DNA of 64,000 nucleotides, taken from Anaerolineae bacterium (GTDB lineage Bacteria > Chloroflexota > Anaerolineae > Aggregatilineales > Phototrophicaceae). Positions within the stretch are counted from its first letter, which is position 1. Every line of letters starts with the position of its first letter. Of this stretch, positions 28,323 to 64,000 are shown in pieces. Made by a program: the position numbers and the translations under genes. The stretch spans positions 1 through 64,000 of the forward strand of contig JALHNT010000031.1 in NCBI GenBank assembly GCA_022843385.1, written 5' to 3'. The notes under the pieces were generated by a model. That model did no database searches and was not told the DNA's origin. It worked only from the letters and a program-made list of their open reading frames with translations.

Positions 28323-31304
28323 TTAGACGGTATGCCCTTTCAGGGTGGAACGGATTTGTGCCACCAGACTCTCACGGCTGAACCGGCTCTTCTGTAGAAC
28401 CTGGCTCACCTGTTCTCCCAACTGGCGCACCGGCGCGCTGGTCACATCCATCGCCGTTAGAATGATGACTGGAATGGCGCGGGTTGCTGGATTTTCACGC
28501 AGCACAGTCAACACCTGTGCCCCGGACATCTCCGGCAGCATCAGGTCAAGCAGGATGAGCGGCGTCTCATGGGTTTCCAGATAGGCCAGTGCCTGCCGTC
28601 CATCTTCCACTTCGACGGTAGCGAAGCCCGCGTGGTTGAGGAATTTGTGCAGCAATCGCCGCATCTGCGGTTCATCATCGACGATCAGGATCGGGTCGCC
28701 GGAGCCGCCTGCCATGATCTGGTTGACCTGTTCCAGCAGCGCGCTGCGATCAACCGGCTTGCTGAGGTAGTGAGCTGCGGCCTCAGCCGCATTGGCTTCC
28801 AGCGCATCGGGCGAGAGCAGGATGACGGGGATGTCCATCGTATCCGGTTCGCACCGCAGCAGCACCAGCATCTCCGGGCCAGTCATGGTCGGCATCATGT
28901 AATCCGTCACGATCAGCGCCGGGTGCAGCCGTTGCGCGATCTCCAACGCTTGCTCCGGACTGGTGGTGGTAATCACCTCAAAGCCTTGCGCCATCAGATA
29001 CTCATCAATCAGTCTGAGCGCTGTCGGATCGTCATCCACCACCAGCACCAGCGGCTGATCGCTGCTTGCCAGTGGGATCGCTGGCATGGCGGGCATTTCG
29101 ATCTGCTGGCGGAAAGGCAGCAGGATGACAAAATGACTCCCCTTGCCCGGCTCACTATCGACCCAGATGAATCCCTTGTGCAGCCGCACCAGGCGATACG
29201 TGATCGCCAGTCCCAGGCCGGTGCCTTCCCGTTCGCGGATGCTGGAGCCATCCACCTGACGGAAAGGATCGAAGATGTACGACAGGGCGCTGGCCGGGAT
29301 GCCAACTCCGGTATCGCGCACGGTGATCGACAGCCAGTTGCCATCCGGCACCTGAATCGTGGGCGGGATCAATTGTCCAAACTGGGATCGTCCGCCGCGC
29401 ACCGAAGTGAAATCGACTCCCACGTTGATCTCACCAACTTCGGTGAATTTGATGGCGTTATCCAGCAGCGCCATCAGGATCTGGCGCAGCCGTTCGGCAT
29501 CAGCCTGTATCCGCGGCAAATCAGGTTGAAGGCGCATGTGGAATTGCAGATCTTTGTCCTGGGCGCGGGGTTGAAATTCACCCACAACATCCAAAAGCAA
29601 ATCGCTGATCGAGAAGGTGTGCAGGTTCAGTTGAATCTCGCCGGCTTCAATGCGCGCCAGATCAAGCATCGAATCGACTAACAGCATGAGCTGTTTGCTG
29701 CTGGTCACCACCCGCGCCACCCGGTCATACTGCCGGGCATTCAGTTCACCATAGACCTGATTGAGGAGCAGATCGGTGTAGCCGACAATGGTGTTGAGCG
29801 GCGTCCGCAATTCGTGGCTGACATTCGCCAGGAATTCACTTTTCAGCCGGTTGATCTCCAGCGCCGCTTCATGCAACCGGGCATTTTCCGCTGCCAGCGC
29901 TGCCTGCCGAGCCAGCCCGTACGCCAGATCAAGATCATCAACCGTGTAGGGATGGCTCAGATCGCGTTCCATGACGATCAGCCCAATCGACTGGTCGCGC
30001 GCGATCAGCGGCACCCCCAGCCATGAAACCCGGTTATCCACTGTTTCGATCAATGGATGACCGGAAAGGTATACCTGCCGCGCCGGGCTATTTTCCTTCC
30101 AGTACATTTCCGACTGCTGGGCGGTCTGCTGCTGACCACGCGCTGCCATCACCCGCATCCGGCTGCCATCCACAATCCGCGGTGCTGGCAGCATCAGCCA
30201 GGCGCGGTCATAGCGTGTCAGACGTTCCATCTGAACCAGAATGCGGTCAAACACTTCCTGGGTATCGAGGCTGGCGGTCATCGTCTGGCTGACATCCAGC
30301 AGCGTCCCGGCCAATTGTCGCTGGCGCTGCTCGGTCTGGATTAGCCGCTGCATCTCCAGCGCCTGCCCTAACTGCCCGGCCAGCAGCAGCAGCAGTGCAA
30401 AATCCGCATCGTTGTAAGCATGAGGCCGTACATCGTGGACGACAATCAACCCAACCACCTGCTGCTGCGGATCGCGCAGCGGCGCACCCATCCACGAACG
30501 GGTGCTGCCATCGACATCAGTCTCATCCGGCGCGACTCGCAGCAGCTTCAGGCGCGATTGTTCGCCCGGTAAATCGCGGAACAGCAGCGGCAGCCCTTTC
30601 TGGACGACCACGCGCGGCAGACCGGTGATAGCAGCCGGCGGCAGGCTGAGGCGTTGACCATGCTGCACAAAAAGCTTCCGGTAAATCCAGCGTTCCTGCG
30701 GCTGATACAGCCCGACGAAGAAATCCGAATGCTCAAAGATCAGCTTGAGTTGGGCGTGCAGCGCATCCCACCATTCGGCGCTGTCGGCAGGCTGGTTCAA
30801 CACCTGGTTGAACTCATACAGGTTGGCGCTCAGGTTGTGCCAGTTGGCATGATTTTCAATCGCCTGGATGCGCTCTGCCAGCAGCCCGGTCAGCAGCAGC
30901 GCAATCTCAGTGGTATCCGCCGCCAACGACTCGATCCCGGCGAGCCACACCATGCCGCGCGTTTTGCCATCACAGCGCAGCGGGATGAGCAGGCCGGGTT
31001 CGTAATAGGCCAGTCCAGAAATCAGACGGGAAGTAGAAATCAGATGGGGTTCGCGCCAGGTCTGCCATCCCTGCCAGACATCGCTCTGACGCATCCAATC
31101 CTGCACCGGACGGGGAATGGCTTGTGCCGGTAACAGCGCCTGTATGCGCGTAAGCTGCGGGTTCAGCAGCGCCAGACCACAGGTGCCGATGCGCTGCCCC
31201 AGGTAAGTCGTGACCTGTTCAACGGCGGCTTCGATGGTTTCGACATGGTGGAGCTGCTCAATAAAAACATGTATAGGCTCAGCAACGAGCAGTGAAAAAG
31301 CCAT
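28323..31304 (-). CDS. Hybrid sensor histidine kinase with GAF domains and two receivers
   Basis: A 993-residue cytosolic kinase with no clear membrane helix. There are three N-terminal GAF-like modules (about 10-150, 165-325 and 330-475). The dimerisation domain has the phospho-His in 'FLANVSHELRTPLNTIVGY' near 497. The ATPase domain follows, with the N box 'LLDNAIKF', G1 'DTGVGIP' and G2 'GTGLGLAI'. Two receiver domains come last (about 735-850, 'TDYMMP', and 865-985, 'LDLMLPE' with the phospho-Asp in DLMLP). It senses a cytoplasmic signal and passes phosphate to internal or separate receivers. AGGAAC precedes the ATG. Confidence 0.93.
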   Translation of the reverse strand: MAFSLLVAEPIHVFIEQLHHVETIEAAVEQVTTYLGQRIGTCGLALLNPQLTRIQALLPAQAIPRPVQDWMRQSDVWQGWQTWREPHLISTSRLISGLAYYEPGLLIPLRCDGKTRGMVWLAGIESLAADTTEIALLLTGLLAERIQAIENHANWHNLSANLYEFNQVLNQPADSAEWWDALHAQLKLIFEHSDFFVGLYQPQERWIYRKLFVQHGQRLSLPPAAITGLPRVVVQKGLPLLFRDLPGEQSRLKLLRVAPDETDVDGSTRSWMGAPLRDPQQQVVGLIVVHDVRPHAYNDADFALLLLLAGQLGQALEMQRLIQTEQRQRQLAGTLLDVSQTMTASLDTQEVFDRILVQMERLTRYDRAWLMLPAPRIVDGSRMRVMAARGQQQTAQQSEMYWKENSPARQVYLSGHPLIETVDNRVSWLGVPLIARDQSIGLIVMERDLSHPYTVDDLDLAYGLARQAALAAENARLHEAALEINRLKSEFLANVSHELRTPLNTIVGYTDLLLNQVYGELNARQYDRVARVVTSSKQLMLLVDSMLDLARIEAGEIQLNLHTFSISDLLLDVVGEFQPRAQDKDLQFHMRLQPDLPRIQADAERLRQILMALLDNAIKFTEVGEINVGVDFTSVRGGRSQFGQLIPPTIQVPDGNWLSITVRDTGVGIPASALSYIFDPFRQVDGSSIREREGTGLGLAITYRLVRLHKGFIWVDSEPGKGSHFVILLPFRQQIEMPAMPAIPLASSDQPLVLVVDDDPTALRLIDEYLMAQGFEVITTTSPEQALEIAQRLHPALIVTDYMMPTMTGPEMLVLLRCEPDTMDIPVILLSPDALEANAAEAAAHYLSKPVDRSALLEQVNQIMAGGSGDPILIVDDEPQMRRLLHKFLNHAGFATVEVEDGRQALAYLETHETPLILLDLMLPEMSGAQVLTVLRENPATRAIPVIILTAMDVTSAPVRQLGEQVSQVLQKSRFSRESLVAQIRSTLKGHTV

Positions 31305-42392: not shown

Positions 42393-42438
42393 ATGCCGCG
42401 TATAATGAGTGCGATGGATGAGATTGAGGATGGTCAGC

Positions 42439-42963
42439 ATGTCCCATGTGTTCATCAGTTACGCCAGCACGGATGATGCCATTGCCCGGCGCATCGATAT
42501 GGCGTTGGAGGACGCTGGCATCACCGCTTGGATGGATACCGATATTGAGTTAGATGATAACTGGAATGAAGCGATTGATGCTGCGCTGCGTGAAGCATCC
42601 AGCCTGGTCGTTTTGTTGTCGCCAGCATCGCTTAACTCATCACAGGTCACGGCTGAATACTGGAGCATGTTCACCCAGAACCGGCGCGTCTATCTGATGA
42701 TGGTCGAGCCAGTTGACCGCGAAGCGCTGCCGACGCGGTTGGCGCGCCTGACGTGTATTGATGCCAGCCAGGATTTTGAGCAGGGAATGCAGACCTTAAT
42801 CGAAGCGATTGATTCGGCTCAACCGCCGTCTGCGTCGCAGTCTTCTCAGGTACGGCTGCGCTTCAGCATTGATCGCCACCAACTGGCACAGGTGACGGAA
42901 AAACTGGCCGAAGCCGGTGTGTATGCCTTTGAAGTAGACCCTGCTGACAGCCCGGATCAATAG
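42439..42963 (+). CDS. TIR-domain protein
   Basis: A 174-residue protein from the ATG at 42439, with GAGG about 9 bases upstream; a longer frame from 42409 lacks a site. The TIR fold covers about 1-130: box 1 'HVFISYASTDDAIARRI', 'GITAWMDTDIELDDNWNEAID' (core AWMDTDIELDDNW) and 'VVLLSPASLNSSQVTAEYW', whose Glu73 fits the catalytic Glu of TIR NAD-degrading enzymes. A short C-terminal strand/helix part follows (130-174). It could be an NADase, a signal-nucleotide synthase or an adaptor. No other defence gene lies beside it; its neighbours are transporter genes and acpS. Confidence 0.87.
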   Translation: MSHVFISYASTDDAIARRIDMALEDAGITAWMDTDIELDDNWNEAIDAALREASSLVVLLSPASLNSSQVTAEYWSMFTQNRRVYLMMVEPVDREALPTRLARLTCIDASQDFEQGMQTLIEAIDSAQPPSASQSSQVRLRFSIDRHQLAQVTEKLAEAGVYAFEVDPADSPDQ

Positions 42964-49425: not shown

Positions 49426-51699
49426 ATGATGCCTGATCTATTTAAACTGATCGAACGACAGAGCACCGCCAGCGCGGAATTGAGCGGCTGTGAGACTTTC
49501 CCCCAGATCGCTGAGGTGGCAGCGCGCTACCTGCTCAGCGCCAGCAACCAGTTCATCACGCTCAGTCTGGCTGATTATCATCCCGATGGTCGGCTGGCAC
49601 GGCTGCAGGTAGTCGCCAGCGCCAACCGCGAACGCGTCTTCCTGGCCGACGGGATGGTCGAGGTTCAGGCCGCTGACCTACCCATCTTTGAAGCGGTCAT
49701 TAATCGTGCTGAACCTCGGCTGATTGCTGATGTCTCTCACGAGGCTGACCTGCCGGACACGCTGCGCCAGTGGTTCGCAACCTTCAAAATCCAGTCGCTG
49801 GCACTGCTTCCAATGTGCTTCCAGGGACATGTTATTGGGCTGTTGGGCATCAACAGTACTGATCAGCCAGTGACGATGAGCAAGGCCGAAAGCCAGTTAT
49901 TCCAGGGGTTTGTCGCCCAGGTCAGCGCCCAGGTACAGGCGGCTAATCTGATCCAGCAGCCCTATCGTCAACCACTGGAACAGCAGGTCAGCAACCTCAA
50001 GGCTATCAGCCAGATCACCGAAATAATTATCAGCGCCCATGATGAGCAGACGCTGCTCGACCAGGTGAGTGAGTCGCTGGTACGTCTGCTGCCTATCGAT
50101 CACTGTGGCATCCTGCTGGCGACCGCAGGCGATGAATTTGGAGTCGTCGCCAGCGAATACCCCGATCACCAGGCACGCGGCGTCAAAATACCGGTGAAGG
50201 ACAATCCAGCCTGGAACGCGATCGTCGCCAATGACTTTCAACCGTTGGTGCTTCATGACTTACAGAAAGATGAGCGCGTCGAACCCGCTACCCGCGAAAC
50301 CTCGCAGCGGCTTGGAATTCACGCGATGGCAATCCTGCCCATTGTGGTGGAGCGCCAGATTGTGGGCGGCGTCGGTCTGGACATTTACAGCCCTGATCGT
50401 TCAATCACGCCTGATATGGTTGAAGTTGCACAAATCATTACCGCTCAGTTGAATGTCAGCCTGCGCAACCTGCGCCTGCTGAAGGAAGTTCAGTACAGTG
50501 CGGAACAATTAACCGGACAGGTTGACCTGCTCAAACAGCTCAATCAGATGGTGGCTGAATTGAACACCATGCCGGATCGTGATCAATTGCTACGCGAGAG
50601 CTGTCAAAAACTATGCCAACTCCTCCAGGCCGATCATGTCGGTGTGGTGCTGGCAGATGAACCCAACGGCACCTGGGGGACAGTGGTCAGCGAATACCCC
50701 AATCGCCAGACAGTAGGTGAACGGTTGAATCTGACTGAAAATCCGGTACATCGGCATAACCTCCGACACCCACATCAGCCCTTCGTCATCAATCACATCA
50801 GCCAGAATGCTGATTTCGGCCCAGACATCAAAGGATTACTGGAACGAATCAGCGTCCATTCTATCGCTATCCTGCCGCTGATGCTGGGCGATACGATACT
50901 GGGGTCGGTCGGGGTCGATATGTATAACGACGAGCGCGTCTTCACTCCGGATATGGTGGAAGTTGCACAGTCTTTCACCAATCAGATCGCGATTGTGATG
51001 GAGAATCTCCGGCTGCTGCACGAGGCCGAACGACGTGCTCAACAGCTCCAGCATGTCAACACCTTCAGCCAATCAGTTCAGTCAACCTTCGATCTGGGTC
51101 ATATCCTTCAAGCAATGTTGACTGAAAGCCAGGCCATGCTGCCCAACAACCAGATCAGCATCCTGCTTCATGATCCAGTTGAAGGTCAGCTTAGAACCGT
51201 CGCACAAGCCAGCGACAACGAAATTCGGCTGTCGCTCACAAACCGCGAAACGGTGCCAATGGATGGTCCGCTCGCACGCGTCTGGAAGGATCTACAACCA
51301 GTCTACTTGCCTGATCTGCGTGAGGTTGCAGCCGGATTAGATGCCGGCATCACAATGCGTTCGTGGCTGCTGGTACCGTTGGTGGCACGTGGACGTCCTC
51401 TAGGGGTAGTGAGTGTAGGTGCAGATCGTCCCCATGCCTATTCGCCAGTGGACATCAGTGTGTTTTCGCAGATGGCTAATCAATTGGCGAGCATCATTGA
51501 AAGTGTGGATGTGTATCAGCAGAGTGTCCGTGTGGCCCGCAATGAATCGCTGGTGAACGAGATTTCCAGCCAGCTTCAGCGCCAGATGGACATCAATAGC
51601 ATGATGCAGATCACAGCCGAAGAGCTAGGCAAGGCGCTGGGAGCACGGCGAGCACGCATTCGCTTAGGCGTCAGTCCGCAGCAGGATGAGGAAGTTTAA
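49426..51699 (+). CDS. Multi-GAF sensory protein without output domain (array gene 1)
   Basis: A 757-residue soluble protein made of four GAF modules: about 20-165, 190-350 ('LLPIDHCGILLATAGDEFG'), 365-535 (a near copy of the second: 'LLQADHVGVVLADEPNGTWG') and 545-700. Modules two and three share the end pattern 'DMVEVAQ.....I....NLRLL.E'. The last 50 residues ('NESLVNEISSQLQRQMDINS ... LGARRARIRLG') form a GAF beginning that stops after the first strands. There is no kinase, GGDEF or DNA-binding domain. The start may be at 49426 or the adjacent ATG at 49429. It is first of a six-gene same-strand cluster. Confidence 0.85.
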   Translation: MMPDLFKLIERQSTASAELSGCETFPQIAEVAARYLLSASNQFITLSLADYHPDGRLARLQVVASANRERVFLADGMVEVQAADLPIFEAVINRAEPRLIADVSHEADLPDTLRQWFATFKIQSLALLPMCFQGHVIGLLGINSTDQPVTMSKAESQLFQGFVAQVSAQVQAANLIQQPYRQPLEQQVSNLKAISQITEIIISAHDEQTLLDQVSESLVRLLPIDHCGILLATAGDEFGVVASEYPDHQARGVKIPVKDNPAWNAIVANDFQPLVLHDLQKDERVEPATRETSQRLGIHAMAILPIVVERQIVGGVGLDIYSPDRSITPDMVEVAQIITAQLNVSLRNLRLLKEVQYSAEQLTGQVDLLKQLNQMVAELNTMPDRDQLLRESCQKLCQLLQADHVGVVLADEPNGTWGTVVSEYPNRQTVGERLNLTENPVHRHNLRHPHQPFVINHISQNADFGPDIKGLLERISVHSIAILPLMLGDTILGSVGVDMYNDERVFTPDMVEVAQSFTNQIAIVMENLRLLHEAERRAQQLQHVNTFSQSVQSTFDLGHILQAMLTESQAMLPNNQISILLHDPVEGQLRTVAQASDNEIRLSLTNRETVPMDGPLARVWKDLQPVYLPDLREVAAGLDAGITMRSWLLVPLVARGRPLGVVSVGADRPHAYSPVDISVFSQMANQLASIIESVDVYQQSVRVARNESLVNEISSQLQRQMDINSMMQITAEELGKALGARRARIRLGVSPQQDEEV

Positions 51700-51703
51700 C
51701 AAT

Positions 51704-53398
51704 ATGGTACAAAAGCGACTCAATCGCCTGTTAAAGCTCGATCAGTACGAACAGGAATCAGATCGGCTGCGCGCTGCCCTGGTGTTAAGCTCATCTATTC
51801 TAATTCTAGTTCTGGCAACTATCGTGTTTCTGGTCGCACGCAATGAAACGCAGCAGAATATGTTCCAGCGAATGGCTGAGAACTGGCGCTCAACAGCGAC
51901 CGTGTTTGCCATCTATGCTGGCTCTTTGTTCAGTCTGATCCTGCTGCGGCTAGGAAAATTCGAATGGGCCAGCGGCAGCCTCATTCTGGGTGGCTCTGCT
52001 GCTATCTTTTTTGAAGTCGTGCTAGATGGCCTTTATTCATCCTCGCATCCGGTATTTCTGGCGCTCATCATTCTGATATCTGTTGTCTTGCTCGGGCAGC
52101 GCGGATTATTGTTTGGAACCATTATGGTGAGCGTGATGACGCTCATCGGCTTTGATGCCCGCCAAACATTGCCAGCCCCAGAGACAGTCAATAACGTGTC
52201 ATCCGGGATCATTACCTGGTTAATGCTGATGCTGGTTGCTGCGGTTAGCTGGCTTTTCATCCGCTTTAACCGCATCAGTCGGCAGGAAGGCGCGGCGGGG
52301 GCGCGTGGCGAACAGGCCAAACAGGCTGAGATTATCAGCCAGATTGCCCAACGCATCTCGGGACGTTCCTCGCTGGACGAGGTATTGAACAATGCGATTG
52401 AACAGGTACGTCTGAATTATCCAGATATTTATCACGCTCAGATCTATCTGATTGACGAAACCGTAGCCCGCCTGGTCGCCAGCACCGGCGAAGTCGGTAA
52501 GAAATTGCTGGAACGTCAACACGCCCTTGCTGTCGGCAGCCAGAGCGTTATCGGTACTGTAAGTGCCGTCAATCGTGCCATCGTCGCCCGATCCGGCGAC
52601 TCAGTTCATCATCGCAACGAATTTCTCCCCAATACACGCACCGAAGCGGCATTCCCATTACGGCGCGGCACCGTTGTGATTGGTGTGCTAGATGTGCAGA
52701 GCAAACAGGAAAATGCCTTCATCGAAGACAGTTTGCCCCTCTTTCAGGCATTGGCTGATCATATCGCCATCGCCATTGATAACGCTCAATTGTTCGAAGC
52801 GACGCAGCGACAGCTCGGCGAGAATCAGTCGCTGCTCGATCAATTGAGTCGTAACATGACTGAGCTGAACCGCCTGAACCGGCGGCTGACCGGTCAGTTC
52901 TGGCAGGACTACCTAAATCAACAGAGCAATCAACTTGGCGTTGAAATTGATCTGGACGAGAACGTGAGCGTCCGCCATCTGTCACTGACGCCCGGCATTC
53001 AGGAAGCGATCCGCTTTAATCAATCGGTACAGAATCGCCAGGCAGGCAAACACCAGATCGCTGTCCCGCTGCGCGTACGCGGCGAAGTCATTGGCGCTAT
53101 GGAATTTGAACTGGATGAAGGGGCTTCATTGGCACCAGAGGATATTGTTTTGTTGGAAGAAGTCAGCGAACAGTTGGGTTTAGCTGCCGAAAGCAACCGC
53201 CTGTTCGAAGTCAGCCAGCGAATGGCACAGCGTGAGGCGTTGGTGAACGAAATCAGCTCCCGCCTACAGACGACTAGCAGTGTCGAGATGACCCTGAGTG
53301 CTGCTGCCCGCAGCCTGAAGGAAACGCTGCGGCTGGATCGGGTTTCGATCCGGCTGGGGACGCCGCCGGTCAATGGGGCTAAGGAGGAAGTGCAATGA
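51704..53398 (+). CDS. Membrane GAF sensory protein (array gene 2)
   Basis: A 564-residue protein with five or six membrane helices in residues about 20-195. A GAF domain follows at about 215-365 ('LNYPDIYHAQIYLIDETVAR', 'VIGVLDVQSKQENAF'). A linker contains 'FWQDYLNQQ' near 400, then a degenerate GAF half ('IAVPLRVRGEVIGAMEFELD', about 450-500) and the shared C-terminal tail ('EALVNEISSRLQTTS ... RVSIRLG'). I chose the ATG at 51704, which has GAGGAAG 9 bases before it; an ATG at 51686 overlaps the previous gene. It has no output domain. Its stop overlaps the next start (ATGA). Confidence 0.85.
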   Translation: MVQKRLNRLLKLDQYEQESDRLRAALVLSSSILILVLATIVFLVARNETQQNMFQRMAENWRSTATVFAIYAGSLFSLILLRLGKFEWASGSLILGGSAAIFFEVVLDGLYSSSHPVFLALIILISVVLLGQRGLLFGTIMVSVMTLIGFDARQTLPAPETVNNVSSGIITWLMLMLVAAVSWLFIRFNRISRQEGAAGARGEQAKQAEIISQIAQRISGRSSLDEVLNNAIEQVRLNYPDIYHAQIYLIDETVARLVASTGEVGKKLLERQHALAVGSQSVIGTVSAVNRAIVARSGDSVHHRNEFLPNTRTEAAFPLRRGTVVIGVLDVQSKQENAFIEDSLPLFQALADHIAIAIDNAQLFEATQRQLGENQSLLDQLSRNMTELNRLNRRLTGQFWQDYLNQQSNQLGVEIDLDENVSVRHLSLTPGIQEAIRFNQSVQNRQAGKHQIAVPLRVRGEVIGAMEFELDEGASLAPEDIVLLEEVSEQLGLAAESNRLFEVSQRMAQREALVNEISSRLQTTSSVEMTLSAAARSLKETLRLDRVSIRLGTPPVNGAKEEVQ

Positions 53399-54969
53399 CT
53401 CAGACACCTCAATGGGATGATTTTCGTGCCTTGCGCGTGCGCTTCATCTACATAATCGGCATCTATTCGCTGATTGTTTCGATACTGGGTATCGGCAGCG
53501 CTATTGCCGTTGAAGGATTTGATACCGATGGATTGCTGGCATCCTTCACTTTTGTCATCATGGCGCTGGTTGCTATTGGGCTAGCGTATCGCCGCCAGAT
53601 CGTTCCAGCGGGTATGTTGCTGGTCGCGAGCTATGTCCTATCGACATTGACTATCCCTATTGCATTTTTGCTCAATGGTACCTTTGCCATCATCGGTGCT
53701 GCCTTGTTAACTCCACCGGTGATCTACTGGCTCACTAACGGGTTAATGTTCGCAGTTGGGCTGCTGCGCATCATGCAGACTGCACAAAGCAGCGATGGGT
53801 TCAGCTTTGACTCGGTGACTTATCTACTAGTGTTTATTGGTATCAGCCTGACTCTACGCTACCTGGTCAATCGTTTCGAGAAATCAGCACAACGAGCCAG
53901 TCAGACGGCGTCCTATCTGCGCGAGACTGCCGCGATCAGCCAAGCACTGAGCAACGTGCTTAATGTAAATGATCTGCTCATCAAAGCCGCCAGCGAAGTA
54001 CAGCAGCGCTTTGATGTGAACCAGGTTCAGATCTTCCTGATGGATAACAATGGCAAGAAAGCGCAATTGGCCGCCAGCACGGTTGCTTCCAGCCAGCGCC
54101 TGTTCGAACAGCGCTATGCCCTTGAAGCCAGTGCCGCCAGCCATATCGGGCAGGTCATCAAGCTGCGCCAACCGATCAACCTCAACCAGATCGGTAGTAC
54201 GGCTCCGGACATCCTGGCGAATACGCGCTCCGCGCTGGCTCTCCCCATCTTTGATGGTGAACGTCTGATGGGAGTGCTGGACGTGCAGAGCCGCTTCATC
54301 AACGCCTTTGGCAGCGATCTTTCCCAGACCTTACAAATCGTTGCCAACCAGATCGGTGCGGCTATCCGTAATGCCCAACTCTTCGACGCTCAGGAACACA
54401 GCAGCCGAGACAGCAAACGCCTGATGCTCGATGCCCAGACCAATCTGCGTGAGATTCAACGTCTGAACCAGGAACTCACCCGTGCCGGCTGGCAGGAGTA
54501 TCTGACAACCCGCCAGGCCACCCGCGGCATCAGCTTGAGTGATCAGGACATCAGTATTCAGCATGAATGGACGCCGGATCAAATTGCAGCCACTCAGGCG
54601 CGCAAGCCAGTTGTGCGGAGCGAGAATGGACAGCAGATTGTGGCGCTGCCACTGATGCTTGGATCAGAAATCATTGGAGCGATGGAGATAGAAGCACGCC
54701 ACGAAATGGGTGACGTTGAATTGCAGGAATTGGTCAGTCTGATCGCGCAGCGCCTGGCGACAAACCTGGATAAAGCACGTCTGTTCGAAGAATCGCAAGA
54801 AGCAGCGGCGCGCGAACAGCGCATCAACGAAATTGTCGCTCAATACCAGTCAATCAATAATGTGGATGATTTGCTGCGCGTCACTGTTAAAGAGCTAAGT
54901 GAGATGCTTGGCGCAAAACAGGCCAGCATTCATCTCAACCCGATGATCCGCGAGGAGGCGCAGGCATGA
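53395..54969 (+). CDS. Membrane GAF sensory protein (array gene 3)
   Basis: A 524-residue paralogue of the gene before it. About six membrane helices lie in residues 15-160, and a coiled linker leads to a GAF at about 180-330 ('QQRFDVNQVQIFLMDNNGKK', 'ALPIFDGERLMGVLDVQS'). The 'GWQEYLTTRQ' linker (near 365), a degenerate second GAF half ('IVALPLMLGSEIIGAMEIEA') and the tail 'RINEIVAQYQSINNVDDLLR ... LGAKQASIHL' complete it. No output domain is present. It is coupled to both neighbours by 4-bp overlaps, which suggests fixed stoichiometry among the products. Confidence 0.85.
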   Translation: MTQTPQWDDFRALRVRFIYIIGIYSLIVSILGIGSAIAVEGFDTDGLLASFTFVIMALVAIGLAYRRQIVPAGMLLVASYVLSTLTIPIAFLLNGTFAIIGAALLTPPVIYWLTNGLMFAVGLLRIMQTAQSSDGFSFDSVTYLLVFIGISLTLRYLVNRFEKSAQRASQTASYLRETAAISQALSNVLNVNDLLIKAASEVQQRFDVNQVQIFLMDNNGKKAQLAASTVASSQRLFEQRYALEASAASHIGQVIKLRQPINLNQIGSTAPDILANTRSALALPIFDGERLMGVLDVQSRFINAFGSDLSQTLQIVANQIGAAIRNAQLFDAQEHSSRDSKRLMLDAQTNLREIQRLNQELTRAGWQEYLTTRQATRGISLSDQDISIQHEWTPDQIAATQARKPVVRSENGQQIVALPLMLGSEIIGAMEIEARHEMGDVELQELVSLIAQRLATNLDKARLFEESQEAAAREQRINEIVAQYQSINNVDDLLRVTVKELSEMLGAKQASIHLNPMIREEAQA

Positions 54970-56645
54970 ATCTGCTGCTGGGGTTTTTCCGCGTCCAGTT
55001 TACCTATAGCAACCGGCTGGAAGCACGGCTGGCAAGCCTGCTGCTGTATAGCAGCATGGCCTTTTTTCTGGCAGCCGGAATTTATTCCGTCATATCCGTC
55101 ATTCCCTGGATCATCGAGAATAACACGATTGATCTGCTCACTCTCGTAGTTCCGTTAGTTGCTATCGCCAGCATCGGCGTCTATATCCTCATCCAGGGTG
55201 GGCAACTGACGGCAGCTCGTGCCCTGTTCATCGGGTCAATCACCCTGGCTGCCCTCTCGATCCTGTTCCAGTGGCCGCGTGAATTGCCGAATCTAGGCGA
55301 CATTGACAACGTGGTACTGTTGATACCCGTGATTGCCAGCGGCCTGATTCTGGGTCGACGAGGCCTGTTAACAGTGACACTGATTACGATAATTGCGCTG
55401 CTGCTGGCTGCGCTGGGGCAAACCACCAATACAGCACAAATTATCACGGTACCCGCCAACGAAGCCCTTTATCAACTAATGGTGCTGCTGATCGTGGTTG
55501 TGGTGTTGGCAGGAATGCTGTTGGCATTTGCCAGTGGAATAGAGCGAATTGCCAGCGAGGCATTGCGGATCAATCAGCGGCGTGACTGGATTCATCGATT
55601 GAATCAAGGCCTACAGGATATTGAAGGCAACGAACGCGATGTGCTAAAGGCTGCGCTCAACCGCATCAACAGTGAAATGCCTGGCATCCAGACTGAAATT
55701 TATCTTATGGATGAAGCTGGCAACCTGTTTCGTGGAATTGCAGCGGTGAATATGCAACGCGATCGAGTTTTGCTAAGCGACGGTAGCCACATCAGCGAAG
55801 CCGTGCGTAATCGGGCAGGTTATCTTGTGACCCGGAACGATGTTACTGATTTGCGCCGTTATCTCAATCAAGCTTCAAGTGAAGGAGTGGCGCTGCCGCT
55901 GCTGGAGGGACAACAGATTCTGGGCGTCATAGATTTTCAAAAGGCCGATGCTTTTGAGCGTGATCAGATGGAAACACTGGCACTGCTGGCTGAGCAAGTG
56001 GCACTCTCCTATCGCCAAAGCCGCGACCGTAATCGTATGACGCAACAGTTACGTGAACAAAACGTCACGCTGGATAACTTGCGTGAACAATTGGCAACTT
56101 TTGTGAAACAGGAGCAGCAGCGCACTGTAGGTGTATGGCAACAATATGTTCAGGGTCGCGGACGCAAGATTATCGGATTCGACATGGAGGCGGGCAGTGC
56201 ACAGCCAGTACCTTCAGTTTGGGTACCGGGTGGGGTAGCTGAAGCAGTGCGTACAGGAGCGATGCAGACTGAGCAGCGCGATGGTGAACAGGTGGTCAGC
56301 ATTCCGATCCGCTTCCGTGATCAGTCGCTCGGTGCCATGTCCTTCACTCTGCCATCCGAGCGTCCTGTCAGTCAACAACAACTTGAAGTAGCTAAGGTAG
56401 TTTCGGAACGGTTGGCACTGGCACTGGAAAACAGTCGGTTGTTTGAACAAAGCCAGGCACAAGCTCACCGCGAACGGCGCGTGAATGATATCAACGCCTT
56501 GCTGATTGGCTCGACTGATGTTCAGGCCGTGCTTAATCTGGCAGCAGAAAACTTTAATGAGGCTCTGGGTGCGATCAATACCCGTATTTATATCCAGCCC
56601 CAAGCGCTGGAAGAACCACGCGCCCAGCAGGAGGCGGATCGATGA
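54966..56645 (+). CDS. Membrane GAF sensory protein (array gene 4)
   Basis: A 559-residue protein with the same plan: about six membrane helices in residues 20-195, a GAF at about 215-355 ('INSEMPGIQTEIYLMDEAGN', 'GVALPLLEGQQILGVIDFQK'), then the linker with 'VWQQYVQGRG' near 390. A degenerate GAF half with 'VVSIPIRFRDQSLGAMSFTL' follows, and the tail 'RRVNDINALLIGSTDVQAVL ... LGAINTRIYIQP'. Its GAF is more diverged than those of genes 2 and 3. No catalytic domain is seen. It overlaps both neighbours by 4 bp. Confidence 0.85.
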   Translation: MNLLLGFFRVQFTYSNRLEARLASLLLYSSMAFFLAAGIYSVISVIPWIIENNTIDLLTLVVPLVAIASIGVYILIQGGQLTAARALFIGSITLAALSILFQWPRELPNLGDIDNVVLLIPVIASGLILGRRGLLTVTLITIIALLLAALGQTTNTAQIITVPANEALYQLMVLLIVVVVLAGMLLAFASGIERIASEALRINQRRDWIHRLNQGLQDIEGNERDVLKAALNRINSEMPGIQTEIYLMDEAGNLFRGIAAVNMQRDRVLLSDGSHISEAVRNRAGYLVTRNDVTDLRRYLNQASSEGVALPLLEGQQILGVIDFQKADAFERDQMETLALLAEQVALSYRQSRDRNRMTQQLREQNVTLDNLREQLATFVKQEQQRTVGVWQQYVQGRGRKIIGFDMEAGSAQPVPSVWVPGGVAEAVRTGAMQTEQRDGEQVVSIPIRFRDQSLGAMSFTLPSERPVSQQQLEVAKVVSERLALALENSRLFEQSQAQAHRERRVNDINALLIGSTDVQAVLNLAAENFNEALGAINTRIYIQPQALEEPRAQQEADR

Positions 56646-58870
56646 AATCTTTGTTGAGAGCGCTTAATCCGCTGAACTGGTCGCTATGGATCAAGTTTAC
56701 ATTTGGCTTCGTCACGGCGATTCTGATCCCGTTGATGCTGATAGGCGCAACCGGGTTGCTGGTGCTGAATGGAATCTATTTTCAGGATGTCGGGAAATTT
56801 CTGGATCAGATCGTCCAGAACCAGCAGCAAGTCATCAGCAACAATCTGGTCGCCGCACAAACTTCCCTCGAATCATTAACCACGCAGCGTGAGTTGAATG
56901 AACACTTTCAACCACTATTGACAGAAGATGTGATTGCACGCGAGGATATAGAGAACCTATCGTCACATCTGCAAAGCATTATCCTCACCTCGCCCTATTT
57001 CGAAGATATGCGCCTGCTGCGCAATGATGGTCTGCTGGTCGCACGGGCAACAGCATTCTCGACAATCAGCAGCACTCGAACGGATTCTGGTTCGTTAGCC
57101 TTTCAACAGGCCAGCAGCGGCTTGCTGCAAAATCGCTATCGTCTCACCATCGTCCACGACAGCGCACGGGTGCTGCGCGTCGAGTTGACGCTGGCAATCC
57201 GTGATGAGAATGGTCAGACTTTAGGCTTCATGGTGGCTGCACTGAATACAGCAAATGTATTTCTGAGCAATCTTGCGCTACCTGCCAATGATTATGGTGC
57301 GCGCCTGTATCTTGTTCCGGTCAGCCAGACCATCTGGGTCAGTCAGGATCGTGTGAGTACCTTTAGTGATGCCACACCATTAAATCGACCGGTCATCTCA
57401 GCAGCAGTAGAAGGTACTGCCGTCAATCAGACAGTGGCAAGCGACGCTGGCAGCATTCTGAGTTATGGTGTCCCGATTTTTGATCCAGTAAATAGTAACA
57501 GAATCCTGTTTGCGCTCCTGATTGAAACCAGCCCCATCAGTGCCGTCAATTTCACCCTTGATCAATTGGGAACCACACGTCTCTTCGTTATTGTTATCGG
57601 TTTGGGATTGGTGATGCTGGCACTGACAGTAGCATTCCATCAGGTCATCACCGTTCCGCTTAAGGGTCTGCGCCAGTCCATTCAGGCCATCACACGAGGC
57701 GACTTCAAGCAACCTGTCCCAACCGCAGCGCGATTGGACGAAATCGGGGAAATTGGTGCAGCCTTCGTTGATATGCGCCAATATGTCCGGAATTTATTGG
57801 ACGATCTCGAGTCGCGCATTGCCTTACGTGCACGTGACATCAACGCCACCCAGGAAGTCAGCCGGTTCGCTGCTACTCAGCGCGACCTGCAAACGCTGAT
57901 GGAACAGGTTGTAGAGCTGATTGTCGAGAAGTTCCCCAGCATTTATCACAGCCAGATCTTCCTGGTCGATAACGCACGTCAGTTCACTGTACTGCGTGCC
58001 AGTACCGGCGAAGTCGGCCGACTGCTGCTGGAACGAGGGCATCGTCTGGCCGTTGGCAGCTCCAGCCTGGTGGGACAAGCGAGTGCTGTCAGCCGACCGT
58101 TCATCGCCCGTGACACAGCCGCGAGCAATATTCATCGTCCCAATGTGCTTCTGCCAGAAACATTGGCTGAACTGGCAGTCCCCCTGCGTGTAGGTAATCA
58201 GGTTATCGGTGTGCTGGATGTACAAAGCAAATTCCGCAATGCTTTCAACCCAGATGAAATCGGTATTCTGGAAACCCTGGCGGATCAGGTAGCGGTCGCG
58301 ATTGAGAACGCTCGCCTATACCAGGAATCATTGCGCCGTCTGGAAGAATTGGAACGAGCCAATCGTAAAGCCACCCTTCAGGCATGGCAGGAATACCTCT
58401 ATGCCCAGCGCGAACGTCAGATGACTAGTATGTCGGGAATGCAGACCTCCACTGATACATCGGAACTGCGGCAGCGTGCGATACAAACCGGTGAAATCGC
58501 AGTAGGAATGTTAACCCCCCAACAGACGGTTCCCATCGCAGTGCCAATCCGCCTGCGCGATCAGATTATTGGTGCGGTGGAATGGGAAGTGCGAGACCAG
58601 GACATGAGTGACGATAAGTTGCAACTGGCGCAAGAGCTTGCGAGCCGTCTAGCGGTGAGTCTGGATAATGCCCGCTTGTTCCAGGAAAGCCAGCGCGCAG
58701 CCGAACGCGAACGTGTGGTGAACATGATCGCCGCGAAGCTGACACCGCAGACTCAGATTAACGATATTCTGCAAACGGCTGTACGTGAAGTCGGGCAAGC
58801 ATTACGCTCACCCCAGGTGAGCATCCGCTTGCAGCGGCCACTCAACGGAAATCACAACGGTCAGGGCTAA
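56642..58870 (+). CDS. Membrane GAF sensory protein with extracytoplasmic sensor and HAMP (array gene 5)
   Basis: A 742-residue protein. Membrane helix 1 is at about 15-38, an extracytoplasmic Cache-like sensor domain at about 40-305 ('YFEDMRLLRNDGLLVARATA') and helix 2 at about 312-335. A HAMP linker follows (about 336-390, 'TVPLKGLRQSIQAITRGDFK'), then a GAF at about 415-560 ('SIYHSQIFLVDNARQFTVLR'). The 'AWQEYLYAQRE' segment is near 582, then a degenerate GAF half and the shared tail 'RVVNMIAAKLTPQTQINDIL ... VSIRLQ'. There is no kinase. It looks like a methyl-accepting or kinase sensor whose output was removed. It ends 73 bases before the giant gene. Confidence 0.87.
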   Translation: MKSLLRALNPLNWSLWIKFTFGFVTAILIPLMLIGATGLLVLNGIYFQDVGKFLDQIVQNQQQVISNNLVAAQTSLESLTTQRELNEHFQPLLTEDVIAREDIENLSSHLQSIILTSPYFEDMRLLRNDGLLVARATAFSTISSTRTDSGSLAFQQASSGLLQNRYRLTIVHDSARVLRVELTLAIRDENGQTLGFMVAALNTANVFLSNLALPANDYGARLYLVPVSQTIWVSQDRVSTFSDATPLNRPVISAAVEGTAVNQTVASDAGSILSYGVPIFDPVNSNRILFALLIETSPISAVNFTLDQLGTTRLFVIVIGLGLVMLALTVAFHQVITVPLKGLRQSIQAITRGDFKQPVPTAARLDEIGEIGAAFVDMRQYVRNLLDDLESRIALRARDINATQEVSRFAATQRDLQTLMEQVVELIVEKFPSIYHSQIFLVDNARQFTVLRASTGEVGRLLLERGHRLAVGSSSLVGQASAVSRPFIARDTAASNIHRPNVLLPETLAELAVPLRVGNQVIGVLDVQSKFRNAFNPDEIGILETLADQVAVAIENARLYQESLRRLEELERANRKATLQAWQEYLYAQRERQMTSMSGMQTSTDTSELRQRAIQTGEIAVGMLTPQQTVPIAVPIRLRDQIIGAVEWEVRDQDMSDDKLQLAQELASRLAVSLDNARLFQESQRAAERERVVNMIAAKLTPQTQINDILQTAVREVGQALRSPQVSIRLQRPLNGNHNGQG

Positions 58871-58943
58871 ACCTTTGATCGTATACTGGTTAAGGAAGTT
58901 CGGGACGTGTCCGTCCGATTGCGCGAGCGAATAGGTAAGAAAT

Positions 58944-61900
58944 ATGGTGTCTTCAAATCAGCGCAGCTTACATCAGCAGGTCATCCGCCAATCGATACCT
59001 ATTGCGGTTGGTGTGCTTATCGTCCTCATCATTATGCTCCTGGTGGTCAGCTTTGAACGGGTGACCAATGAAGTGGAAAATGCACAGCGTGCAACACTCA
59101 TCATTCAAGCAAGTGTTCTGCAACGCGCCATCGACGAATTAACGAATGATGTTACCCTGTTGTCCCGTACCGACGAAGCGCTCCACTTCGGTGAATTGCT
59201 GCTAGAGACCGACACACAACGCACTGATGAATTCAATCAGGCGCAGCGACGGCTGACACAAGGTTTTCTGACGATCATCAATCAAACCAGTTATGCCCGC
59301 GTTCGTTTTCTGACGACGGCGGGTCAGGTCTATACCCAGGTCGAACTGAACAACAATATTCCCTTCTCCGATCTGCTGTTGCAAACGACGCCGATTAGCG
59401 ATTCGCTCCACTGGCAGCGAAGTCGTGATAATCTGCAAACGGTCATCGCGCCAATTAGCCCGCATAGCAGTCTTTCCGGTCGGCGTCTGTGGATTCGTGC
59501 TTTTGCGCCAGTGACAGACTCGGCCAACGAAAATCGATTTCTGGGGACAATTGAACTGGCGCTTGATGTGACAGCCCTCGTTCAGCCGACTCAACCCGAG
59601 GGTGCTCGATGGCTCATCATCAATCGTGATAACCAGGTCGTCAATCTTCTGAATGACTTGCCGCAACCTTTGGCTGAAGTCGATCCCTTGTTGGTTGATA
59701 GCTACGTCAATTTGAGCGCAGATTATCACGATGGGCAGATTGCATCCAGCGTCAGCGTTGATCTATCTTACGTTGAGGATGCGCCGTGGACCCTGGTGCT
59801 GCTCGAACCGGGTGCCCCAATCATACTCGGTTGGGTCGTCCGCGCCGTACTGGCGATCATAGTCATCACGACCATCGTTGGATTGGCGTGCTACCTGTTC
59901 TATCGCATCCTGCAGGCTCGCCTGACCCCGCTCACAACCACCAGCGAGATGGCTGTCAAACTAGCAATGGGCGAGATGACTGATACCTTACCAATCATTC
60001 CGTCGACAGACGAAATCGGCCAGTTGAATGATGCCTTCAAACGGATTTCGCACCGGGTCAATGAACTAAGTGCAGAACTTGGTGAAAATGTGCAGCAGAA
60101 CCAACAGCAGTTGGAGACTGCGCTGCGAATTAGCCACGAAATAAACGCTTCCCAACACATCAATAACCTGTTTGATCGGGCAATTGAACAGGTCTGTCGG
60201 GAGTTCAATCTGTATCAGGCACAGGCATTCCTAGTCGATGATGTGGCCTTGAACCTCGTATTGCATTACAGCTATGGCGAACACGCAGCTCACCTAATTG
60301 AACAACGTCCCCAGATCCTGATCGGTTCACCGACTCTTATTGGCAGCGTTGCCGCGTCTGGAGATGTGATTTTCGTCGACAATACCCGACGCGGGAGCAG
60401 TTATCAGCCGGACCTGCAATTGCCACAGACCGCCTCGCGAATCGCATTACCGCTGCTGGTGGAAGGACATGTGATCGGGGTACTGGATCTGCACAGCAAA
60501 ATTGCCCGACACTTCAAGGCCAATGAGATCGCCATCCTGCGACTATTGGCCGGCCACATCGCAATGGCCGTGCACAAAGCCAAGCTAATCAGCGACTTCG
60601 AGGTTCGATTAGCAGACGACACCCGTGTCAGCCAACCGTCCACACAAAAGATGGCAGATGCTTTGTCTGACTCGTTGGGACAGGAAAATGGCTATCGCTA
60701 CGATCTGAGCAACGTACAGGCGTTTTCAGACGTCGTAGACGACGAAAGTATTGCTGCCTTTAGTGCACCCATCAGTATTCGCGGTCAGGTGATTGGCACG
60801 ATCACAGCCGCCGCACCAGAAGGCCTATCCTTTGCTGAAGGCGACCACGCTATTCTCCGCGCAGTGGCGGATCGTGTTGGCCTGGCAGTGGAGAGCGCTC
60901 GATTGTTCCAGGAAACGCAGTCCAGCCTCGCAACAACATCCGCGCTCTATGAACTCAGCCGCCAGCTCAGTGAGGCCAATGGGCTGGATCAGGTTGTGCG
61001 GGCGGTATTGAACACATTTGTTCCTCAGGCTCGTAGCGGACAGATCTGGCTCTCAGATGATGATCGCACCCTGCGGTTGGCGGGACACTGGGATCAGGAA
61101 ATTGAAAGCGGTGAACGCGCCGAAGATGTGCGCTTCTCGACCGAACGGGTTGCACTGCTGCGCGACATGAGCGATCAGAAACTTAAGCTGATACAGGATG
61201 TCGCCCTGGATAATCGGCTCGATGCAACCCTACGCGAGTTGCTGCAGGGCTTTGGCGCTGCCGCTGCGGTTTTCATCCCTTTCGGCGGGCGCGGGCAATC
61301 ACACGGGCAATTTGGCTTGTTGTTTGATGCCCCGCGTCAATTCAGTGAAGCTGAAGGCCGACTATATAACACGTTGATCGATCAGGTCATGGTGGCTATC
61401 GACAACCGCTTGCTGACACAACGTACCGAAATGACTTTGCGACAGATTGAAAGCCTGTATGCCGCCAGCCGCCTCATCAATACCGCTGAGACGCCACAAC
61501 AGTTGATCATGGCACTGATGGCTGCATCCGAACAGCCCTACGAATTCGAGATTGGCCTGCTCGAAGGCAAGCTGGATGTAGAGGGTCTTCCGACACAGGT
61601 ACATATCATGGCTGGTACTGAGGGAGGCGGTGTTGCGGAACGCGATCTTGTCCTGCCGCTGACAGACAAATTGAATGCATTGCCAGCACTGCCAGGTGTA
61701 CCGGTCGAGGATGGGTTCCGTATGCCCTTCCCGCTTTACAGTGGCAATCAACCGCTTGCCGTCCTGTTCATATTCAGTACGGTCGATCATCCTCTCCATC
61801 TGGCTGATTATGATGTCTACCAAACGCTCGCCTCGCAAATCAGTACTGTGCTGCAAAACCAGCGCTTGCTCCTGCAAACATCCCAGGCACTCGATGAAAC

Positions 61901-64000
61901 GCGCCGCCTGTATACGGCCAGCCGCGACATCGCCAGCGCCCAGGACTCGGGCAGCGTATATGCCGCAACAGGTGACCATTTGGCACAGGCCGAAGCAGCA
62001 GTTAGCCGAATTTCTATCTTCCTGGCAGGCCCGAAACCAGAAGCAACCGCAGCTCATTATGATGTAGCGTATACCTGGGAACGAACACCGCGTTCTGATA
62101 GTCCGCTCAGAATTGGCGACCAGTTCACCAGCCAGGTTGCACCATTTGGCGCTCTGATGGGCGGTAAACCCGATCCGCTATACTTCGACTCGCTGGGCGT
62201 CCAGGTCTCAGTCCTCAATCGCCTGCCACTCCTCCTGGGAAGTTGGGGCGCGCGCAGTGCGGTGATCGCGCCACTGCGTACCCAGCGTGCCTGGTTCGGC
62301 GTGCTGATCTGCGAATCGGGAGAGGAAAAAGCCTTTACTGAAGCATACATTCGTTTTGTGCGCGCTATTGCCGATCAGGTGGCGACTGCAGTTGAAAATC
62401 GCTTCCTGTTTGATGAAGCCCAGACCGAAGCCCAACGCGCACTCGCACTGGCTGAGGCGGGTCAGTTCGCAGCACAAATTGGTTCGGATTTTGAGCGAAA
62501 CATTAGCCAGGTGTTTGAGCGGGTGGCGCAGCCGGCCAGCTATGACCGCTGGCTGCTGGCACTGATTGATGAGAAGGATGCGAACCGCTTACAAGCAGTC
62601 ACGATGCGAACCCCAGCACTTGAGGAAGATGTGGGCAATTTCGCTTTTGATCTGCTATCAACCTCACACTCGATTGTGGACTGCGTTCGCTTAAATCGGC
62701 TGTTGGTCATCAATGACCCGGGACGCTATCCAGCCTTCAGTGATACCCCCGCGGCATTATTGGCGGACGTCGGCAAACATATTACTGTTCCAGTTTATTC
62801 GGGTTCGAATATCATCGGTGCACTTATGATTGGGCGTGACCTTCGTGCAGCCGATCTCGACGAACGTGATGAGCAATTGGTGCGAACCCTGGCCGCTCAG
62901 GTCGCCGTAGCAGTAGAAAACCGGCGGCTGTTTGAAGCGGCCGAACGCGAACGGCAGAATCTACGCTCGATCCTGGAGACAGTCCCCACGGGAATTGTGG
63001 TGTTGGATGCCCGTACGCTGGTGCCCATTCAGGCTAATCAGCAATCGGAAGAACTGTTGGGTAAGCCGATTGACCATACCCGGCCTTTTAATGTAGCCGA
63101 CTACAATCTGATCCGTACCGGTACCAATGTGCATTATCCCGAAGATGAATTACCAATCACGCTGGTACAGCGTGGGCGTGATAGTGCCTTCAGCGATGAC
63201 GTAGCCGCGGTGCGCGATGAGAATGACCAGACAGATCTGCTGTTGAACGCCGCACCAATTTACGATGGGCGGGGCAATGTGACGGCTATCGTCGCTGCTT
63301 TCCAGAACATCAGCAACCTGCGCGGCCTGGAAAACACGCTGCAAAACAGCCTGCGTGAGCAAATCGCGCTCTATGAAGCGACGCGCTCCCTCTCTGAAGC
63401 CTCAAACGTCGATGAAGCGCTGGATGCAGCACTGGCACAGTTGATGATGCTGGAGCCGATGGATGCCTATATCCTGCTCTTGGACGAGCAAAGCGGGAAC
63501 CTACAGGTAGCGCGTGGATTGCTCTCGCCTGACACCTTCAATCTGCCATCGGAGATCTTCCAAAGCAATCCGCTGCTGGTCTCTAACATTGAAGACTCAT
63601 ATGCCATTGATGACACAGTCAGGGCAGCAATTGCAGCTCTGGGTGCTCAAGCATTCGCCAGTGTGCCGATGCGCACGCGCGAAGTGATACAGGGCTGGTT
63701 GGCAGTACTCTACGATCATCCGTTGGCACCTGGTGCAGATAACGAACGATTCCTGACGACCCTGGCCGATAACGCTGGAATTGCGATTGACAATCGCAAT
63801 CTGCAACGCCGTACTGAATTGGCCTTCCAGGAAGCCTCAGTGTTGTACGAGACCAACCGCGCGCTAACCAGTGTCAACACGCCCGATGAGATCGTCAATG
63901 CGGTCGTGAATCATATGAAAGGTGACCATATCATCCAGGTCTTCATGGCTGTTCCCACCGATCAGACCGAAGGTGCGGACATGGTCGTACTGGCGAACTG
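58944..64000 (+). CDS. Giant membrane multi-GAF/PAS sensor (array gene 6, 3' end outside window)
   Basis: The frame is open from ATG 58944 to the window end, more than 1,680 residues; an in-frame TAG lies just upstream. TM1 is at about 19-38, an extracytoplasmic sensor at about 40-290, TM2 at about 292-322 and HAMP to about 375. Several GAF modules follow (first at about 390-550, a degenerate half near 585-650, others near 665-830, 835-985, 990-1160 and 1165-1325). A PAS domain starts near 1338 ('ILETVPTGIVVLDARTLVPI') and at least two more GAF modules come after. The expected histidine kinase or cyclase end is beyond the window, so the output is unknown. Confidence 0.88.
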   Translation, partial: MVSSNQRSLHQQVIRQSIPIAVGVLIVLIIMLLVVSFERVTNEVENAQRATLIIQASVLQRAIDELTNDVTLLSRTDEALHFGELLLETDTQRTDEFNQAQRRLTQGFLTIINQTSYARVRFLTTAGQVYTQVELNNNIPFSDLLLQTTPISDSLHWQRSRDNLQTVIAPISPHSSLSGRRLWIRAFAPVTDSANENRFLGTIELALDVTALVQPTQPEGARWLIINRDNQVVNLLNDLPQPLAEVDPLLVDSYVNLSADYHDGQIASSVSVDLSYVEDAPWTLVLLEPGAPIILGWVVRAVLAIIVITTIVGLACYLFYRILQARLTPLTTTSEMAVKLAMGEMTDTLPIIPSTDEIGQLNDAFKRISHRVNELSAELGENVQQNQQQLETALRISHEINASQHINNLFDRAIEQVCREFNLYQAQAFLVDDVALNLVLHYSYGEHAAHLIEQRPQILIGSPTLIGSVAASGDVIFVDNTRRGSSYQPDLQLPQTASRIALPLLVEGHVIGVLDLHSKIARHFKANEIAILRLLAGHIAMAVHKAKLISDFEVRLADDTRVSQPSTQKMADALSDSLGQENGYRYDLSNVQAFSDVVDDESIAAFSAPISIRGQVIGTITAAAPEGLSFAEGDHAILRAVADRVGLAVESARLFQETQSSLATTSALYELSRQLSEANGLDQVVRAVLNTFVPQARSGQIWLSDDDRTLRLAGHWDQEIESGERAEDVRFSTERVALLRDMSDQKLKLIQDVALDNRLDATLRELLQGFGAAAAVFIPFGGRGQSHGQFGLLFDAPRQFSEAEGRLYNTLIDQVMVAIDNRLLTQRTEMTLRQIESLYAASRLINTAETPQQLIMALMAASEQPYEFEIGLLEGKLDVEGLPTQVHIMAGTEGGGVAERDLVLPLTDKLNALPALPGVPVEDGFRMPFPLYSGNQPLAVLFIFSTVDHPLHLADYDVYQTLASQISTVLQNQRLLLQTSQALDETRRLYTASRDIASAQDSGSVYAATGDHLAQAEAAVSRISIFLAGPKPEATAAHYDVAYTWERTPRSDSPLRIGDQFTSQVAPFGALMGGKPDPLYFDSLGVQVSVLNRLPLLLGSWGARSAVIAPLRTQRAWFGVLICESGEEKAFTEAYIRFVRAIADQVATAVENRFLFDEAQTEAQRALALAEAGQFAAQIGSDFERNISQVFERVAQPASYDRWLLALIDEKDANRLQAVTMRTPALEEDVGNFAFDLLSTSHSIVDCVRLNRLLVINDPGRYPAFSDTPAALLADVGKHITVPVYSGSNIIGALMIGRDLRAADLDERDEQLVRTLAAQVAVAVENRRLFEAAERERQNLRSILETVPTGIVVLDARTLVPIQANQQSEELLGKPIDHTRPFNVADYNLIRTGTNVHYPEDELPITLVQRGRDSAFSDDVAAVRDENDQTDLLLNAAPIYDGRGNVTAIVAAFQNISNLRGLENTLQNSLREQIALYEATRSLSEASNVDEALDAALAQLMMLEPMDAYILLLDEQSGNLQVARGLLSPDTFNLPSEIFQSNPLLVSNIEDSYAIDDTVRAAIAALGAQAFASVPMRTREVIQGWLAVLYDHPLAPGADNERFLTTLADNAGIAIDNRNLQRRTELAFQEASVLYETNRALTSVNTPDEIVNAVVNHMKGDHIIQVFMAVPTDQTEGADMVVLAN

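Follow-up and report, generated by a model that had tools for sequence, protein, structure and literature searches.

Several described systems share features with the locus reported here, and each of them departs from it in some respect. Hybrid histidine kinase phosphorelays are similar in that gene 6 of our locus carries HisKA, HATPase and two receiver (REC) domains, and in that separate REC genes lie upstream in 43 of the 78 named loci obtained from the best 80 of 458 relatives (two or more such genes in 27 of them); unlike in those phosphorelays, however, many input domains here belong to separate proteins without a kinase, and a REC-fused PLP enzyme is among the partners. MCP-CheW-CheA arrays are comparable because many kinase-less receptors here also appear to serve one kinase, but this kinase is of the HisKA type and not CheA, and Pfam finds in genes 1-7 neither the methyl-accepting domain nor the CheW of a chemoreceptor array. 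The arrays of Vibrio depend on ParC, a ParA-like ATPase, to be placed at the pole (PMC5090175), and a ParA-like gene is likewise present in some relatives of our locus. The plant ethylene receptors, as GAF-bearing membrane receptors, are a distant parallel, described in PMC2799528 as members of high-mass complexes whose mass is partly tied to the GAF region. The ethylene receptors have output motifs in their C-terminal half, whereas the receptors here end in half a GAF domain. Response regulators with enzymatic output, such as CheB and PleD, resemble gene 7, in which REC is joined to an enzyme; to our knowledge, no PLP enzyme is known as the output of a response regulator. Within the titles and abstract starts of the literature covered, no REC-fused PLP enzyme or fusion of a threonine-synthase-like enzyme with REC (ThrS-REC) is found, nor, with few subscription journals included, any description of a locus of this kind. 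We file the locus under two-component signalling, as a variant which, as far as these titles and abstract starts go, has not been described before.

The window, meaning the whole stretch of DNA analysed, consists of bases 1-64000 of contig C31 (92,889 bases) in a genome of 7.85 Mb. The preliminary description had reported six consecutive plus-strand genes for GAF proteins with 4-bp overlaps at the junctions 2/3, 3/4 and 4/5, and the ORF coordinates and Pfam confirm this: the overlap is exactly 4 bp at these three junctions, 14 bp between genes 1 and 2, and a gap of 73 bp separates genes 5 and 6. Gene 1 (49426..51699, +; 757 aa) encodes a kinase-less receptor with four GAF domains and a C-terminal tail, probably soluble by hydropathy. 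Genes 2 (51686..53398, +; 570 aa), 3 (53395..54969, +; 524 aa) and 4 (54966..56645, +; 559 aa) encode kinase-less membrane receptors, each with N-terminal transmembrane (TM) helices (5, 5 and 6 candidates respectively by hydropathy), two GAF domains and the tail. Gene 5 (56642..58870, +; 742 aa) has the order TM-Cache-TM-HAMP-GAF-GAF-tail, with TM-loop-TM seen by hydropathy and the Cache match below the cut-off. At a Pfam threshold of E<=1, GAF families alone are above the cut-off in genes 1-4, and GAF and HAMP in gene 5, while NCBIfam gives no match above its cut-offs in any of the five. The claim that the first five genes are without an output domain in cis is thus upheld, and a hidden output domain in them, tried as a candidate, is rejected by the same two scans.

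Gene 6 begins at 58944 (+), has its first 5057 bp in the window (58944..64000) and, once the sequence is extended past 64000 as the preliminary description had proposed, is seen to end at C31:67055 as a complete hybrid histidine kinase of 2703 aa. Its domain order is HAMP, GAF repeats, a weak PAS, GAF repeats, HisKA (2156-2223), HATPase_c (2269-2385) and REC twice; the HAMP and PAS matches fall just short of the Pfam cut-off. The GAF repeats are counted as 8 stretches by GAF_2 and as ten regions by a custom GAF model; of these the first covers 404-544, the second extends to 650 and the third to 821. In an alignment of the own protein with 47 relatives the kinase boxes are conserved and the H-box FLANMSHELRTPLNS is kept, and of the two RECs the first looks degenerate and the second intact, so that the sequence has the HisKA with phospho-His, the HATPase and the REC of a hybrid histidine kinase. 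The number of receptors and the length of the kinase show a Spearman correlation of -0.46 over 33 loci, which are not phylogenetically independent and include one broken kinase (L149), and we draw no conclusion from it.

Beyond the window, gene 7 (C31:67200-68897; 565 aa) encodes a PLP enzyme that resembles threonine synthase and carries REC at its C-terminus. The suggestion that the output would lie in the sixth protein or beyond therefore proves right both ways, with the hybrid histidine kinase in gene 6 and the REC-fused PLP enzyme in gene 7. The latter is like ThrC in scoring 180 bits against the NCBIfam profile TIGR00260 (cut-off 167) and in that, among solved chains, those nearest to it in sequence are threonine synthases such as 2zsj; it is unlike ThrC in its REC fusion, in its replaced pocket motifs, and in that two plain threonine-synthase-family proteins are present in the genome besides. 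Of 29 ThrS-RECs, the 24 near-complete ones were aligned and the incomplete ones left out. The PLP lysine K118 (L112 numbering) that goes with the ThrC profile, the PLP pocket motifs, and D446, D490 and K542 of REC (same numbering) are invariant in all 24, and gene 7 has the acidic pocket, phospho-Asp and Lys of REC that are expected in an enzyme-output response regulator. In canonical ThrC, the NS..NP.R segment binds the phosphohomoserine substrate and the GNxGN loop binds the PLP phosphate. Both are replaced in the four ThrS-RECs aligned with the own-genome ThrC (NSVNPFRLEGQK becoming LDRGIKSVAAIEAMKT, and the loop GGNLGN becoming SGGMGP), and for this reason we name gene 7 ThrS-like. On C19 the own genome encodes a ThrC that passes the cut-off, adjoining a homoserine kinase that does so too, and on C14 another threonine-synthase-family protein over the cut-off; ThrS-REC is hence not needed for threonine, and the idea that it is the only threonine synthase of the genome is rejected. 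A LysM protein directly follows gene 7, and no ParA-like and no EamA gene is found among genes 1-7 of the own locus.

At their C-termini, all five receptors have in common some 50 residues that no Pfam model covers. This tail lies on the plus strand at 51514..51672 in gene 1 (by profile and structure-chain match, an N-terminal piece of a GAF domain), 53204..53365 in gene 2 (profile, structure-chain match and AlphaFold2 model), 54784..54942 in gene 3 and 56442..56603 in gene 4 (profile), and 58679..58840 in gene 5 (profile and the alignment of genes 5 and 6). Compared with the PDB, the tail profile matches sensor kinase and related chains, mostly near the chain start, the best being 8w26 (E=4.9e-9), 6oap (1e-6) and 2lb5 (2e-5), in which we take the matched regions to be GAF domains of the cyanobacteriochrome kind; by profile comparison the tail maps to the start of the GAF alignment. 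Residues 314-726 of gene 5 align along residues 302-701 of gene 6, and this alignment together with the GAF positions of gene 6 places the tail where the kinase starts its third GAF. When gene 2 is modelled by AlphaFold2 (36 sequences, pLDDT 85.4, pTM 0.50), the chain ends with helices 484-528 and 533-548 and shows no further sheet. By profiles, then, the tail is the start of a GAF only, and with no extra sheet in the gene 2 model it is not a complete alpha/beta GAF fold.

A tail model trained on the six tails of the own genome and run on the 78 named loci (best 80 of 458 relatives) detects a C-terminal copy in 350 out of 364 GAF ORFs that are longer than 300 aa and lack a kinase, and in none of the GAF-kinase ORFs, which number 60. 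Among the 14 kinase-less ORFs without it, 11 run off the available sequence. Six clear copies are present in the 7.85 Mb of the own genome, five at the window locus and one at a second locus, the next match having E=0.011. The tail can serve as a sequence mark for finding receptors of this type.

The order of these genes is kept in many relatives. The best 80 of 458 relatives in a scan with gene 5 give the 78 named loci, nearly all labelled Chloroflexota and mostly from MAGs. Among them, the full order 1-6 is present in 28 and the order 2-6 in 33, with many contigs ending early, and where matched genes succeed one another, the junction is exactly -4 in 138 cases out of 396. In 56 of the 78 the receptors are followed by a GAF-kinase, many contigs ending before the kinase; in all 42 loci that reach a ThrS-like gene, no other module gene comes between it and the preceding GAF-kinase, and REC is also found by model in 29 of these 42, within the sequence available. 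A tree of slots 2-5, built from the C-terminal 360 residues of 18 of the 28 full-order loci and the own genome (76 rows), shows each slot as one clade with support of 99-100, the slot labels being assigned by best match and position and hence not wholly independent of sequence. The preliminary description had looked to synteny in other Chloroflexota, and on the order 1-6 and the single clade of each slot this synteny is strong. In a separate search, gene 2 or its relatives are found in 57 of 61 genomes; of these 57, all but G055, which is 80% complete, also have ThrS-REC-type matches (56 genomes; best E<=6.4e-155), whereas none of the four genomes without a gene 2 match (G017, G027, G032, G034) does. 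As Thermanaerothrix daxensis GNS-1 (L180) is a carrier with a strain name and not a MAG label, the idea can be tested. Two records labelled otherwise, L137 (Pleurocapsa minor) and L119 (Bacteroidetes), carry the Chloroflexota-type cluster and are probably mis-binned or contaminated. We also note that the REC pair of the relatives lies upstream of gene 1, and that the own pair is at G000:C5:33870-34654, with 75% identity for the first REC.

On the whole, the tail is found in 82 and a ThrS-REC match in 81 of 249 sampled genomes of the class, G162 and G188 being matched in the PLP part only. Both are present in 67 class genomes, ThrS-REC only in 14, the tail only in 15 and neither in 153; for 301 genomes of the phylum the corresponding numbers are 25, 9, 10 and 257, and the odds of co-occurrence are inflated because relatives share ancestry, for which reason we attach no importance to p values. 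The tail and ThrS-REC extend over much of a class about which little is known. Among 16 genomes chosen by hand, nine have 67 tail copies (G009 6, G024 5, G031 5, G042 5, G086 11, G263 9, G272 10, G281 7 and G186 9), and in seven of the nine all 57 copies are in runs beside ThrS-REC, the sixth copy of G009 adjoining a second ThrS-REC. G031 has ThrS-REC on other contigs than the tailed receptors, and G042 has a ThrS-REC on a separate contig and a further one at some 0.8 Mb from them. Three chosen genomes have ThrS-REC and no tail (G070, G096 and G393, the last with ThrS-REC and kinase but no tailed receptor), and four have neither (G027, G034, G451, G301).

The loci also vary in composition. The second locus of the own genome (L062, G000:C41, 4642-15121) is smaller and of the same kind, with a PilJ_N-GAF-tail receptor, an NMT1-like binding protein joined by a 4-bp overlap, a REC-less kinase of 1859 aa with the architecture Cache-HAMP-GAF-PAS, and a ThrS-REC-REC protein. 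Outside the order, arrays have as many as 12 tailed genes in the stretch read, namely in G086. A ParA-like gene stands between receptors and kinase in five of the 78 named loci (L170, L173, L176, L178, L180; best 80 of 458 relatives) and, judged by sequence look, also occurs in G086, G263 and G119. The gene after ThrS-REC, seen in 17 named loci (same relatives), is an EamA-like exporter in six (L166, L168, L170, L176, L178, L180; Pfam on four), REC or REC-kinase in seven and another gene in four; by look, an exporter also follows ThrS-REC in G086 and G263 and stands one gene further in G305. Binding proteins are found within the arrays of G119 and G305, and G305 in addition has a 494-aa tail-less GAF protein after ThrS-REC.

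Four inspected genomes, G129, G189, G237 and G294, have no ThrS-REC at the threshold used, and their tailed receptors still adjoin one kinase. In three of them (G129:C54, G237:C9, G294:C74), tailed receptors of up to 2586 aa lie beside a REC-GAF-kinase-REC protein, the GAF receptor that immediately precedes this kinase, itself kinase-less, is without the C-terminal tail, and the neighbours are HMG-CoA reductase, a synthase-like protein and thiolase, of mevalonate type (Pfam on G129 proteins only). On account of these tailed receptors with kinase and mevalonate-type genes, ThrS-REC as an obligatory partner of the tail is rejected. In G189 the array is beside a GAF-kinase and a binding-protein-like gene. 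From the varied loci read, the receptors and one kinase are the constant part, while the possible output neighbours vary. Some giant receptors have internal tail-like matches, and tail-like pieces within a kinase of G360 are probably ordinary GAF starts. By sequence look, methyltransferase-like genes are located between the giant receptors of G237 and G294.

The conserved row beside one kinase suggests many separate sensors plugged into one shared kinase. With moderate confidence, we propose that the receptors feed this kinase in trans and that the PLP enzyme is a phospho-controlled output. The operon would then be one signalling unit with its inputs in trans. Genes 1-5 would read different cues, one of them being probably soluble, three having several membrane helices and one a Cache-HAMP arrangement. 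Their signalling helices would end in the same half-GAF tail, which normally would be the entry to the next GAF of a kinase, and the tail may act as a common plug by which the receptors couple, singly or in mixed clusters, to gene 6, whose N-terminal half is built on the same plan as the receptors. Phosphate from gene 6 would pass to its own intact second REC, to the separate REC proteins and to the REC of gene 7, the phosphorylation of which would switch the threonine-synthase-like PLP enzyme. We infer the tail-mediated contact, the trans-regulation, the phosphate route and the regulation and product of the enzyme from the domains, order, tail, conservation and co-occurrence observed in the sequences. 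The products may also form one physical complex, which is favoured by the shared tail, the fixed order and the ParA-like gene in the loci of a few distant relatives; a ParA-like partner would suit a large cluster that needs placement, as ParC does. Further, and only as a tentative possibility, the locus could be a CheA-independent array in which GAF receptors with an interchangeable half-GAF plug cluster on one hybrid kinase, positioned in some lineages by the ParA-like protein, with a phospho-switched PLP enzyme as direct output making an exported amino-acid-like product. If true, bacteria would have, besides chemoreceptor arrays, a second means of connecting one kinase with many receptors that can be exchanged, and a PLP enzyme would be under direct receiver-domain control, linking two-component signalling to amino-acid chemistry.

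Several observations count against the shared-kinase reading, namely the tail-less receptor before the kinase in G129, G237 and G294, the tail-less GAF protein of G305, the internal tail-like matches, the distance between ThrS-REC and the tailed receptors in G031 and G042, the own REC pair on another contig, the 15 tail-only and 14 ThrS-REC-only genomes among the 249 of the class, and the own locus having no ParA-like or EamA gene; the tail could also be no more than a stable way of ending such proteins. Two of the observations, the distance in G031 and G042 and the tail-less kinase-adjacent receptors, would fit receptors that never touch the kinase, buffering ligands independently or signalling to unlinked kinases, and are co-expressed only. 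We consider such independence quite unlikely, since it leaves the common tail and the long-kept order unexplained, and both the GAF-kinase that follows the receptors in 56 of the 78 named loci (best 80 of 458 relatives, many contigs ending before it) and the one adjacent kinase in the four inspected genomes without ThrS-REC speak against it. That recent duplicates came to stand in a row by chance, with no function in common, is very improbable. The receptors are indeed mutually homologous, and the local identities among genes 2-5 (25-36%) are only a little below the orthologue medians of about 30-40%, but slots 2-5 by the tree diverged once, before the sampled loci separated, and a chance run is excluded by 28 of the 78 named loci (best 80 of 458 relatives) showing this order again. 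As judged from order and tree, the layout is old and not a run of recent duplicates.

The role of the ThrS-like enzyme can be read in another direction, as a metabolite-reading input in which the PLP pocket reports an amino acid and REC is a phosphate sink or relay. The altered pocket motifs would agree with this, and so would the separate ThrC by the homoserine kinase gene, with which ThrS-REC is not needed for threonine; however, neither the PLP lysine nor the pocket motifs vary among the 24 proteins aligned, as expected of a catalyst, and the EamA exporter after ThrS-REC in six of 17 named loci (best 80 of 458 relatives) fits production and export, though the other 11 do not. An input of this kind is on balance unlikely, and we keep the phospho-controlled output as the preferred role of gene 7.

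A role of the locus in anti-phage defence is rejected, the REC regions giving weak matches only to PADLOC models. Elsewhere in the own genome, L063 (G000:C1, 8831-17050) includes a giant kinase-bearing GAF protein of 2739 aa with REC genes on its flanks and no tail nearby at E<0.01. The window itself has a separate hybrid kinase on the minus strand (28323-31304), with the order GAF-GAF-HisKA-HATPase-REC-REC, and on the plus strand (42409-42963) a small protein which, by sequence look, has a TIR-like start (HVFISYASTDD...).
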